Shown: positions 18,563 to 57,459 of the stretch, piece by piece
Position numbering within the stretch: position 1 is the first letter of the stretch
Layout of the letters: every line of letters starts with the position of its first letter
The notes under the pieces: model-generated
The model's input: only the letters and a program-made list of their open reading frames with translations
What the model was told of the DNA's origin: nothing
Database searches by the model: none
From: Polaribacter sejongensis
GTDB taxonomy: Bacteria > Bacteroidota > Bacteroidia > Flavobacteriales > Flavobacteriaceae
DNA length: 64,000 nucleotides
Direction of reading: 5' to 3'
Assembly (NCBI RefSeq): GCF_038024065.1
Contig: NZ_CP150667.1
Location: 1,302,001 to 1,366,000 of the forward strand
Position numbers and translations under genes: made by a program

Positions 18563-18582
18563 TAGCGTTGGCTTGCGTTAGC

Positions 18583-18678
18583 GATTGAAATGGCATCCTT
18601 TTTTAATGTCAGTTCGAGTAAATTTGCTTTTTTGCAAATTTGTATCGAGAACAAATTAAAAAAGATATAATGTAAAGC
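18583..18678 (+). repeat. structured intergenic repeat, copy 1 (hemE-EI24 spacer)
   Basis: Begins GATTGAAATGGCATCC and ends GATATAATGTAAAGC. The CCTTTTTT near the left end can pair with AAAAAAG near the right end, and an inner hairpin is formed by GTTCGAG-TAAATTTGC and GCAAATTTGTATCGAGAAC. Other copies lie at 24776-24850, 30648-30743 and, partial, 50951-51004. Confidence 0.75.
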
Positions 18679-18681
18679 GCG

Positions 18682-18709
18682 ACTTTGTGTTGTTTTTTCA
18701 ACACAAAGT
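18682..18709. repeat. 11-bp perfect hairpin abutting repeat copy 1
   Basis: ACTTTGTGTTG, six T, CAACACAAAGT. It sits between the repeat end and the sequence AACGCCCAAATA, which in copy 2 follows the repeat almost directly, so the hairpin looks like an insertion or an optional module. Confidence 0.7.
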
Positions 18710-27964: not shown

Positions 27965-28849
27965 ATGTTCAAAAATGTCGGAGAAAGTACATTTGAAGAA
28001 ATTACTTTAGAAAAAGGGTTTTATGTGCTTCATTTTCAGAACGAAAGTAAAGAAGTAGAAAACTTTGAAAGGAAAATAAATAATGCCTTTATACAAATCC
28101 ACTTTTGTTTAAGAGGTAAATCTAAATTTTTATTCAATAATGGCACCTACTCTTTTGACGTTCTAGACAATAGAGCAATTTTATTATACAATCCTCAAGG
28201 GGTTTTACCAATCAATTTAGAGATTCAACCAAAAACTACATTGGTATCATTGTTAATTTCTATCGAAAAATTTCACTCTTTATTTTCTAAAGAATCTGGT
28301 TACATTCCTTTTTTAAGTAATGAGAACAGTAACAAGAAATATTACGACGACACAGAAATAAAACCAACTGTTTCTATTATTTTACAACAAATTATCAATT
28401 CTAAAACAAATAACTCTATTAGAGATTTATATGTTAGAGGTAAAGTATACGAATTGTTAAGCATCCATTTTCAGAAAGAAGAAAATCCGGAAGGTGAATT
28501 TTGTCCGTTTTTAGTAGATGAACAAAATGTTTTAAAAATTAGAAAAGCCAAAGAAATTATTATTGCAAGATTATCTGAACCACCAAGTTTACAAGAACTA
28601 GCGAATGAAATTGGTTTGAACATTAAAAAATTAAAAGAAGGTTTTAAACAAATTTACGGAGATACCGTTTATAGTTTTCTGTTTGATTATAAAATGGAAT
28701 ACGCTAGAAAATTACTAGAGAGCAATCAATATAATGTAAATGAAGTTGGTGTAAAAGTTGGTTATAGTACCTCTAGCCATTTTATTGCAGCCTTTAAAAA
28801 GAAATTTGGCACAACGCCTAAGAAGTATGTAATGAGTTTGAAAGAGTAA
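27965..28849 (+). CDS. AraC family transcriptional regulator
   Basis: 294 residues. The N-terminal ~170 residues form a cupin-like sensor region (HFCLRGKSKFLFNNGTYSF). The C-terminal ~100 residues contain the two AraC helix-turn-helix units (PSLQELANEIGLNIKKLKEGFKQ-like region near 215-240, then VNEVGVKVGYSTSSHFIAAFKKKFGTTPKKY near 260-290). Divergent placement next to hemA suggests it controls heme genes or responds to iron or heme, but the sequence does not show its ligand. The stop codon lies inside a heptanucleotide repeat array. Confidence 0.92.
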   Translation: MFKNVGESTFEEITLEKGFYVLHFQNESKEVENFERKINNAFIQIHFCLRGKSKFLFNNGTYSFDVLDNRAILLYNPQGVLPINLEIQPKTTLVSLLISIEKFHSLFSKESGYIPFLSNENSNKKYYDDTEIKPTVSIILQQIINSKTNNSIRDLYVRGKVYELLSIHFQKEENPEGEFCPFLVDEQNVLKIRKAKEIIIARLSEPPSLQELANEIGLNIKKLKEGFKQIYGDTVYSFLFDYKMEYARKLLESNQYNVNEVGVKVGYSTSSHFIAAFKKKFGTTPKKYVMSLKE

Positions 28850-28914
28850 TCAGTAATCAGTAATCAGTAATCAGTAATCAGTAATCAGTAATCAGTAATC
28901 AGTAATCAGTAATC
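28844..28914 (+). repeat. CAGTAAT heptanucleotide tandem array overlapping the AraC gene stop
   Basis: One GAGTAAT followed by nine exact CAGTAAT units (28851-28913) and a final C, then AAAATT. The stop codon TAA at 28847-28849 is part of the first unit. Confidence 0.95.
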
Positions 28915-28926
28915 AAAATTAAAAAA

Positions 28927-29442
28927 TTGGAACAACTTACACATTACGACATAGAAAATAATCAAAAGCAATTTCCAATAACAATTGTTTGTGATGCCAT
29001 TAGAACACCAGAAAACATAGGAATGTGTTTTAGAATTTCGGAAAGTTTTGGAGTGCAAAAAATTTATTTTCATGAGAATTCACCTACCACAGAAAATAGA
29101 ATTGTAAAAAAGACGGCAAGAAATACCGTAAATCAAATTGAACATGACGTTTACAACAATTTTGATGCGCTAATACAGCAATTAAAGCAAGAAGGAAACA
29201 CCATTATTGGTATAGAGATTACTGATAAAAGTATCGATATTCAAGATTTTAATTTTAAAAATTATGAAAAAATCGTATTACTTTTGGGGAGCGAAAGAAA
29301 CGGAATTGAAAACATCAATTTACTAGACGAAACAATTGCAATACCAATGTACGGTAGAAACTCTAGTATGAATGTAATACATAGTTTAGCGATTACGTTG
29401 TATGAAGTTACAAACCAGTTGGCAGTAAGCAGTAAGCAGTAA
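28927..29442 (+). CDS. SpoU/TrmH-type RNA 2'-O-methyltransferase
   Basis: 171 residues, a compact SPOUT methyltransferase. The three family motifs are present: DAIRTPENIGMCFRISESFG (near 23-42, AdoMet and RNA side), LLLGSERNGI (near 117-126) and the C-terminal IPMYGRNSSMNVIHSLAITLYE knot. The first in-frame start is a TTG at 28927; no ATG exists before the first motif, so TTG initiation is assumed. It probably methylates a ribose in tRNA or rRNA; the site cannot be told. The last codons (QLAVSSKQ and stop) are encoded by the CAGTTGG/CAGTAAG heptad array. Confidence 0.9.
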   Translation: MEQLTHYDIENNQKQFPITIVCDAIRTPENIGMCFRISESFGVQKIYFHENSPTTENRIVKKTARNTVNQIEHDVYNNFDALIQQLKQEGNTIIGIEITDKSIDIQDFNFKNYEKIVLLLGSERNGIENINLLDETIAIPMYGRNSSMNVIHSLAITLYEVTNQLAVSSKQ

Positions 29443-29451
29443 GCAGTAAGC
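29416..29451 (+). repeat. CAGTAAG heptanucleotide array overlapping the methyltransferase C-terminus
   Basis: CAGTTGG followed by four exact CAGTAAG units, ending CAAAAATT. The stop codon of the methyltransferase (TAA, 29440-29442) is within the third unit. Confidence 0.95.
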
Positions 29452-29460
29452 AAAAATTAA

Positions 29461-29553
29461 ATTCTGAAACAAGTTCAGAACAAAAAACAAAATAACAAAA
29501 GTCTATTTTTCAACCTAAAAACTTGAAATTTTGAAGCTTTGAAACTTTTTTAA
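29461..29553 (+). repeat. leader of hemH: short inverted repeat and TTTGAANN octamers
   Basis: TTCTGAA and TTCAGAA (around 29462-29480) form a small inverted repeat resembling a degenerate TTCTGAAACAAGTTCAGAA Bacteroidota repeat. Just before the hemH start, CTTGAAAT, TTTGAAGC and TTTGAAAC follow each other with a period of 8. Confidence 0.5.
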
Positions 29554-30570: not shown

Positions 30571-30647
30571 ACAGTAGTCAGTCTCTGTAAGCAACTGAAG
30601 TTTGTAAAAAACATTAATTCTAGTAAAATTATTAGAAGCTATTTCCT

Positions 30648-30743
30648 GCTTTACATTATATCTTTTTTCTTCTGTTCTCGATACTAATTTGCAAAAAAAG
30701 CAAATTCACTCGAACTGACAGAAAAAAGGATGCCATTTCAATC
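30648..30743 (-). repeat. structured intergenic repeat, copy 3 (hemH-hemJ spacer)
   Basis: Read on the minus strand it begins GATTGAAATGGCATCC, contains the hairpin GTTCGAGTGAATTTGC/GCAAATTAGTATCGAGAAC and ends GATATAATGTAAAGC, almost identical to copy 1 at 18583-18678. Similarity may continue to about 30765 on the right. Confidence 0.8.
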
Positions 30744-30796
30744 AGGGCTAAACTTGTTTGCAGGCTAAAAGCTTAATTTAAAATTATACCCATATT

Positions 30797-32082: not shown

Positions 32083-32135
32083 TCTGTAAACAGTCTCAGT
32101 TACTCACTGTAAACTGCTACTGAAAACTGTAAACT
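32083..32135 (-). repeat. degenerate CAGTNNN heptad array directly after recR
   Basis: On the minus strand, three bases after the recR stop: TTTACAG, TTTTCAG, TAGCAG, TTTACAG and further CAGT/ACTG words. Units are diverged and one has lost a base, but the 7-base rhythm is clear. Confidence 0.7.
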
Positions 32136-50950: not shown

Positions 50951-51004
50951 GTTCTTGATACAAATTTATTCGTTCCTCTTAAATTTACTCGAACTAACAG
51001 GAAC
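50951..51004 (-). repeat. structured intergenic repeat, partial copy 4
   Basis: On the minus strand: GTTAGTTCGAGTAAATTT, a diverged loop, then AAATTTGTATCAAGAAC. This is the inner hairpin of the repeat at 18583-18678 without its outer ends. Confidence 0.6.
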
Positions 51005-51080
51005 TGAAAACTGAGACTGAATACTAATTTTTAAAACAATAGCTTTTCACTGACAATTAAAACTGTAAACTGCCAACTAT
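51001..51080 (-). repeat. degenerate CAGTNNN heptads after the FeS membrane protein gene
   Basis: On the minus strand, directly after the stop: AGTTGG, CAGTTTA, CAGTTTT, then a diverged stretch and further CAGT words up to 51001. It abuts the partial structured repeat. Confidence 0.6.
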
Positions 51081-57300: not shown

Positions 57301-57363
57301 CAATATTCAGTATTCAGTATTCAGTATTCAGTATTCAGTATTCAGTATTCAGTATTCAGTATT
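57301..57363 (+). repeat. CAGTATT heptanucleotide array after lptD
   Basis: CAATATT followed by eight exact CAGTATT units (57308-57363), ending CAAAACT. It starts 6 bases after the lptD stop. Confidence 0.95.
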
Positions 57364-57459
57364 CAAAACTAAAATACTTAGACTCTCTCATACGAACAAT
57401 CGTTAAAACTTATTAACTTTGTTACTTTAGAATTCTCTAATTTAGAAACATAAAATCTA

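Follow-up and report, generated by a model that had tools for sequence, protein, structure and literature searches.

Among the closest described relatives of the elements reported here is the intervening sequence (IVS) of 23S rRNA in Coxiella and Leptospira, which carries an open reading frame (ORF) of the S23p family, is described as selfish and is excised by RNase III in vitro, its protein family being reported as a toroidal homopentamer (PMC4990558); homology between S23 and Avd has also been stated (PMC10053308). Heptad repeats have been described separately. The GGGAATC and GGGGA(T/C)T heptads of Xanthomonas and Nostoc have a period of 7, prefer four units, favour positions within 50 bp after a stop codon (sense) or before a start codon (antisense), form facing pairs (70 and 75 in two Xanthomonas genomes, few in Nostoc) and were explained by G-quadruplexes (PMC4692102); the term S23 is absent from the main text of that paper. 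TAACTGA direct repeats, known from Beggiatoaceae, cyanobacteria and five Bacteroidetes, lie in BOGUAY mostly just 5′ of start codons, with one Flexibacter set just after a stop codon in reverse orientation, and were interpreted as translational regulator sites (PMC4679880). A published link between TAACTGA and S23 was considered and rejected, the main text of the Thiomargarita paper mentioning neither S23 nor intervening sequences.

We analysed a stretch of 64 kb (C1:1302001-1366000, the window) of the Polaribacter sejongensis genome (4.50 Mb), in which arrays of CAGTNNN heptads stand at gene ends and are most likely S23-less arms of an IVS-like selfish element. Like the 23S rRNA IVS, full elements of this kind hold an S23p/IVP ORF within terminal inverted repeats that form a stem around it, in the sense of the host transcript; unlike the IVS, they sit between protein genes, flanked by ORFs at the loci read, rather than in a 23S rRNA helix, and have clade-specific heptad arms and many S23-less copies. 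With the published GGGAATC heptads the CAGT arms here share the period of 7, the placement at stops and starts, and facing pairs, but their core is CAGT and the CAGTNNN units of the window lack G-tracts. Tandem TAACTGA is the complement of a CAGTTAT array, and its orientation in BOGUAY is that of the CAGT-family 3′ arms here, although, unlike for the S23 elements, the accessible text of PMC4679880 proposes no travelling gene.

Kinship of S23 with Avd of diversity-generating retroelements extends to the fold family (bAvd, PF22296, 47.3 bits at a cut-off of 40) but not to the Avd equivalog model, which scored far below its cut-off (37.8 of 80). REPINs, too, are short hairpins between genes that come with a protein gene of their own in low copy number, that of the Y1 transposase RAYT, whose clade matches the repeat, and the elements here resemble them in these respects; for S23, we know of no catalytic site. 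Membership in the REPIN/RAYT system was rejected, since the two Y1_Tnp (PF01797) genes have other palindromes and no CAGT arms (by eye). These RAYT-like genes (L101 and L102, at G000:C1:2634541 and 704709), with GCTAGCG and ACGAGCG palindromes, form a REP-like system of their own in this genome.

Regarding novelty, the preliminary description knew of no heptad arrays tied to stop codons in Flavobacteriia; the placement rule itself was already published for the GGGAATC repeats of Xanthomonas and Nostoc (PMC4692102). None of the matches listed in the literature, among which subscription papers were mostly absent, evidently joins S23 with heptad repeats.

CAGT arrays in the window and across the genome

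All arrays of the preliminary description, at the stops of araC, the methyltransferase, lptD, recR and the FeS gene, are real, as is the weak trace behind hemH, and at every named site CAGT has the orientation of the gene ending there (Table 1). Profile searches back the identities of the AraC-family protein, SpoU methylase, HemH, LptD (LptD_2 profile, 574 bits), RecR and the 4Fe-4S protein. The array of the AraC-family gene (27965-28849) begins in the last codon ahead of the stop; TRF gives it as 28845-28915 with unit AGTAATC (10.1 copies, 100%), and read as CAGTAAT it comprises nine units at 28851-28913. The SpoU methylase array starts within the final codons and contains the stop codon, and the CAGTATT units of lptD (57308-57363) begin 13 nt 3′ of its stop. 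Tandem 7-nt units, the STRR/SSR criterion, are present in the window arrays, and these arrays themselves hold no ORF of the S23p/IVP kind.

Table 1 CAGT arrays and arms of the window, in window positions
Feature	Position	Strand	Placement and form
AraC-family gene array, (CAGTAAT)9	28845..28915	+	across the stop codon; one-armed, without facing ACTG arm
SpoU methylase array, CAGTTGG + (CAGTAAG)4	29416..29450	+	gene 3′ end
hemH trace, two CAGT units (remnant)	30572..30585	+	directly 3′ of the hemH stop codon
recR arm, five CAGT units, spacing 7,7,6,7	32091..32135	-	after the stop codon; short facing arm
4Fe-4S gene, two degenerate CAGT arm stretches	51003..51078	-	after the stop codon; mixed 6/7 spacing
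lptD array, (CAGTATT)8	57304..57365	+	after the lptD stop codon

The three exact arrays end in CAAAA-type tails, as originally noticed (CAAAAT, CAAAAAT and CAAAACT). The same or a similar tail, CAAAA[ACT]TAAAA, closes many exact one-armed arrays in the genus whatever their unit (window 28914-28930, 29450-29465 and 57363-57378; L025, L313, L315, L317 and L405), even behind an octad TTAGATTG array, and a loose form was matched in 16 of 37 arrays at stops; it may be the original target or the element end. No Rfam RNA was found at the arrays of the window and nine loci searched. Elsewhere in the window, the only RNAs over the gathering score were two Flavo-1 RNAs (RF01705), at 18566-18688 (+) and at 30638-30753 (-), the latter directly downstream of hemH, where it adjoins the CAGT remnant.

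Across the whole genome, the three-unit pattern CAGTNNNCAGTNNNCAGT matched 50 times (28+22 by strand) and its reversed form never (0+0), while the two-unit CAGT pattern matched 170 times (97+73) versus four (2+2) reversed. Arms were read as 63 clusters in 43 stretches plus the window, the first 100 of the 170 two-unit matches being placed and only three-unit places being taken beyond 2.99 Mb. A less biased sample, the window and 17 spaced 20-kb stretches picked blind, held nine arms, seven of them in the window, which is therefore CAGT-rich. The tandem character first described holds for the three exact arrays, but strict tandems are a minority in the stretches examined and form one end of a range: five units are present in 18, and three in 17, of the 51 chains that reach three units or more, the commonest five-unit spacing being 7,7,6,7 (11 chains; AGTNNN CAGTNNN CAGTNN CAGTNNN CAGT). 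Ten facing CAGT/ACTG pairs with loops of at most 70 nt occur in the examined stretches, and solo facing pairs have strong predicted stems, with single hairpins down to about −32 kcal/mol. Complementarity of the gap letters between the two arms of solo hairpins was rejected, as 27 of 64 matched, with an uncertain register, versus a fraction of 0.42 between elements, i.e., no excess.

With genes taken as longest-ORF calls, 14 of 75 arms lie inside genes and 61 are non-genic, of which 38 overlap a stop codon of the same direction or begin no more than 35 nt past it, nine are mirrored just 5′ of a start codon, by the same limit of 35 nt, and 14 lie elsewhere. Among arms with an intergenic start, 36 of 59 begin within 30 nt after a sense stop, a zone that covers 8.2% of intergenic strand-positions (p about 2e-24), which supports the tie to gene 3′ ends and the sense orientation given in the preliminary description; two further arms of the 61 overlap a gene end, and several hairpins stand between closely spaced co-directional genes. 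The CAGT arms thereby follow the placement rule of GGGNATC repeats (sense after stops, antisense before starts). G-quadruplexes, invoked for GGGAATC heptads under the same rule (PMC4692102), can be practically dismissed, because the window CAGTNNN units hold no G-tract and yet their core obeys the rule.

Functionally, the sense position just after stops, the predicted stems and the finding that related GGGAATC repeats are mostly transcribed (PMC4692102) would suit a host 3′-end element, such as a terminator, a 3′ stabiliser or an RNase III site. We regard this reading as improbable, given that the presence, type and length of arrays differ between sister species at the same gene, that nine arms are mirrored before starts and several hairpins occupy short gaps between co-directional genes, and that two same-genus genomes carry an ordinary terminator-like hairpin instead (by eye) at the ffh-folD site considered below. 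Mirrored arms, turnover and the presence of the same arms around S23 genes leave the 3′-end signal proposed in the preliminary description unsupported as a primary function.

S23 genes between inverted heptad arms

Between ffh and folD, one facing arm pair encloses a 123-aa gene of PF05635 (23S rRNA IVP, S23), the S23 match at L094 scoring 117.8 bits. The genome has nine PF05635 genes (ten matches; two genes broken), and on reading most of their flanks show period-7 or period-8 repeats, each with a core of its own and inverted between the two sides. A family test in Bacteroidota used 81 of 85 S23 matches (two duplicate fragments in L099, one match cut at a locus end and one with an internal stop were dropped) and 224 control gaps, the S23 loci being the best-scoring ones per search or chosen from the matches listed rather than drawn at random. 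Self-identity of 126 flanks of these 81 genes was 0.478 at lag 7, 0.449 at lag 14 and 0.391 at lag 21, versus 0.275-0.326 at the remaining lags from 2 to 13 and none above 0.33 up to 21, and the control gaps showed no peak (0.332 at lag 7); restricting the set to a single locus for each family of neighbours left lag-7 identity at 0.475 (50 loci). Lag 7 was the best of lags 4-13 in 73 of 109 S23 flanks versus 24 of 130 control gaps, and the best lag-7 window exceeded the 95% level of control gaps in only 34 of 72 S23 loci. The arms are inverted, own pairs scoring 25.2 versus 13.2 for cross pairs (66 loci; reached in 0 of 10000 permutations), and predicted RNA folds contain 18.2 arm-arm pairs versus 10.3 with shuffled arms (62 elements). 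S23 genes of the sampled loci thus sit between inverted heptad arms, and both neighbours are co-directional with S23 in 78 of 81 cases, versus 35 of 69 for small control genes of our own genome.

The pattern extends beyond the family. Outside it, lag-7 identity was 0.434 in 23 loci versus 0.339 in 23 control gaps, and own arms scored 24.4 versus 12.9 for cross pairs (22 loci; three locus-end matches were dropped, and four same-family loci were left out of the outside counts); both neighbours were co-directional in 25 of 27 loci of this set and in 97 of 110 loci of a CAGT-clade search. PF05635 is present in 157 of 198 genomes of the phylum versus 0 of 14 control genomes. Among plasmids, 14 of 35 S23 records were analysed, all cyanobacterial and taken without control gaps, with a lag-7 identity of 0.513 and arm scores of 33.5 for own versus 15.2 for cross pairs (13 loci), the repeats being mostly G-rich or AAAAGCT-type heptamers. 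The link between S23 and heptad repeats therefore occurs in two bacterial phyla. Both neighbours were co-directional in nine of the 14 plasmid loci and S23 was antisense to both in four, which argues against a strict rule of co-transcription. Three cyanobacterial plasmid S23 genes with heptad arms lie within CRISPR operons (L372, L374 and L378), in the order cas6-S23-cas4 twice and cas10-S23-cmr3 once.

Arm length offers a possible connection to the protein. Each of the S23 entries 2gsc and 2rld comprises five chains. Among arms to the right of S23 genes, five units is the commonest length (42 of 110), and those to the left have mostly four (27) or five (26), although the five-unit mode is narrow and half of the S23 loci behind these counts share the ffh-folD site. 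With a five-chain protein and a commonest arm of five units, one protomer per heptad is a fair guess.

Arm core and S23 clade

Evolutionarily, the core of the arms follows the clade of the S23 protein. In a tree of 81 proteins, CAGT/ACTG arms flank 10 of 10 genes of one clade, the CAGT clade, versus 2 of 71 others (p=3.5e-11); our genome has a single S23 copy of this clade, at ffh-folD. A query with this CAGT-clade protein gave 301 matches, of which the best 80, mainly from Flavobacteriaceae, were taken together with 30 further loci; of these 110 matches, 107 loci were kept (three second matches were dropped) and 102 are distinct, nine of the ten CAGT-clade tree genes recurring among them. Although these 102 loci were chosen by protein alone, CAGT stands at least twice on the left in 93 of them and ACTG at least twice on the right in 89, one or the other in 100, and the opposite orientation in only 3 and 2. 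The loci span 24 neighbour pairs, with 55 of them lying at ffh-folD, and arms accompany one copy or more at 23 of these 24 sites. More generally, different-site S23 pairs with at least 50% identity shared more arm 5-mers than 5000 of 5000 label permutations, a result that holds without the CAGT clade too, while the rank correlation between core and protein similarity across all pairs was weak (rho 0.12; permutation sd 0.05, maximum 0.16). At different sites among the sampled loci, the arm core tracks the S23 clade, and solo arms sharing that core occur dispersed at the ends of genes.

Our own genome has a second core, the octad ACTTTGNN (ACTTTG), which flanks the S23 gene at L091 and is also found in solo hairpins with facing arms and in arrays immediately 5′ of starts; the control pattern for this core occurs within (ACTTTGAA)n arrays and is thus no independent control. 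A degenerate ACTTTG-type octad repeat at window 29519-29548, just 5′ of the hemH start, has the mirrored position of a 3′ arm of this second core.

Taken together, the CAGTNNN arrays are likely S23-less arms, lengthened in some cases by slippage, that belong to a family of small, probably mobile hairpin elements. A complete element consists of a 5′ arm of core repeats, frequently about five of them, spaced 7 nt (in places 6 or 8 nt) apart, a loop holding the gene of an S23/IVP four-helix-bundle protein, and an inverted 3′ arm (ACTG in the CAGT family). It occupies the gap from a stop codon to the following gene, and S23 clades have cores of their own, CAGT for the ffh-folD clade here. Core recognition and the mode of movement are inferred: the S23 protein, a homopentamer in crystals, would bind its cognate core, perhaps with one protomer per repeat on a folded RNA or DNA arm, and could help the copying or insertion of arms near stops, with an RNA step being possible in view of the kinship of S23 and Avd. 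The preliminary description had suggested a protein that counts heptads, for which S23 is now a concrete candidate. Solo arms, copied in trans or left after loss of the gene, would be non-autonomous passengers, like the REPINs of a RAYT, spread by or with S23 as selfish stem elements of the IVS type; their stop-proximal placement may follow from target choice together with low host cost, and slippage could then lengthen some of them into exact arrays.

We also posit, as a tentative generalisation that may well prove too broad, that S23/IVP pentamers read heptads in a sequence-specific way, each core having its own reader, and that a broad class of mobile stem elements is driven by them, with the long-known heptads of cyanobacteria, Xanthomonas, Beggiatoaceae and Bacteroidota all being arms and the 23S rRNA IVS a special case in rRNA. 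If so, heptanucleotide repeats of several phyla, previously read in terms of G-quadruplexes, translation or slippage, would have one cause; the S23/IVP family, which has no known function, would gain a likely partner in its own arm core; the pairing code between protein and repeat would be open to in vitro test; and apparent 3′-end signals could be relics of selfish elements.

Turnover between relatives and distribution across genomes

Among relatives, the arrays turn over at the same genes. In the hemH region, copy number lies between zero and 17 among genomes of the genus whose HemH is 98% identical. The SpoU methylase array has 16.9 copies in one relative (L313) and about one in another (L314), the AraC-family array is absent in two relatives with 98% HemH identity and has eight units in one with 88%, and the hemH stop has CAGT arms in L317, L323 and L330 and a TGGTTAG array in L322. 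The lptD array, of eight units in our genome, has about 12 in G516 and about two in G519 and is a CAGTTAG array in G521; the arms of the 4Fe-4S gene are also found in G516, degenerate in G519 and replaced by a different repeat in G521. Another orthologous site has a mixed hairpin in one genome and a CAGTATG array in the other, and at a third a CAGT hairpin is swapped for one with a different core, but most turnover sites keep the CAGT core and alter the NNN. At the sampled loci, CAGT thus persists while sister species differ in their arms, the number of copies and the NNN part. Additionally, five relatives (L315, L321, L322, L323 and L325) have an extra gene of 132-202 aa between the methylase and hemH, beside the position of the CAGTAAG array, which our genome lacks.

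The range of 0 to about 17 copies among close relatives agrees with the local expansion proposed in the preliminary description and, with the uniform units within each array and the arrays of other units at stops, could also be read as neutral slippage of microsatellites (VNTR/STRR), which would expand where tolerated, 3′ ends being tolerant and TAA- or TAG-bearing units keeping a stop in every frame, with S23 irrelevant. The three exact window arrays, which have no facing arm, are a counterpoint to the S23-arm account, and pure slippage from the stop context is possible for the two that extend across a stop codon. As a general explanation, slippage is nevertheless unlikely: CAGT and not its reverse is enriched in our genome, many arms are five-unit chains of mixed 6/7 spacing and ten have a facing ACTG arm, unit turnover at orthologous sites usually spares CAGT, and the core tracks the S23 clade.

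Returning to the S23-arm element, the ffh-folD site links arms and gene directly. At least two CAGT or at least two ACTG were found in none of 30 ffh-folD gaps without S23 (sites hand-chosen, with the upstream neighbour judged by length; one genome, G029, has a CAGT-clade S23 elsewhere and another, G234, was left out of the CAGT-clade search), and arms and S23 gene therefore come and go together. This result, with the match of core and clade across many sites, weighs against S23 being itself a passenger that lands in pre-existing hairpins spread otherwise, by template switching or an unknown enzyme, even though solo arms far exceed S23 copies in our genome (170 two-unit matches versus one CAGT-clade S23) and some CAGT-rich genomes have no detected CAGT-clade S23; we accord that scenario little probability.

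Spread by or with S23 also accords with the distribution of CAGT arrays over 199 genomes of the family, where three-unit CAGT matches are present in 36 of 37 genomes with a CAGT-clade S23 (median 12) versus 71 of 162 without (median 0), 19 of the 162 still having at least 10 such matches. The reversed control pattern is raised as well in S23-positive genomes (20 of 37, versus 23 of 162 others), and part of the correlation thus reflects general heptad richness. Some Bacteroidota (for example G292, G113, G179, G101 and G121) are rich in this reversed control, three-unit TGACNNN, instead of or besides CAGTNNN, and these repeats are possibly the cores of other S23 proteins.
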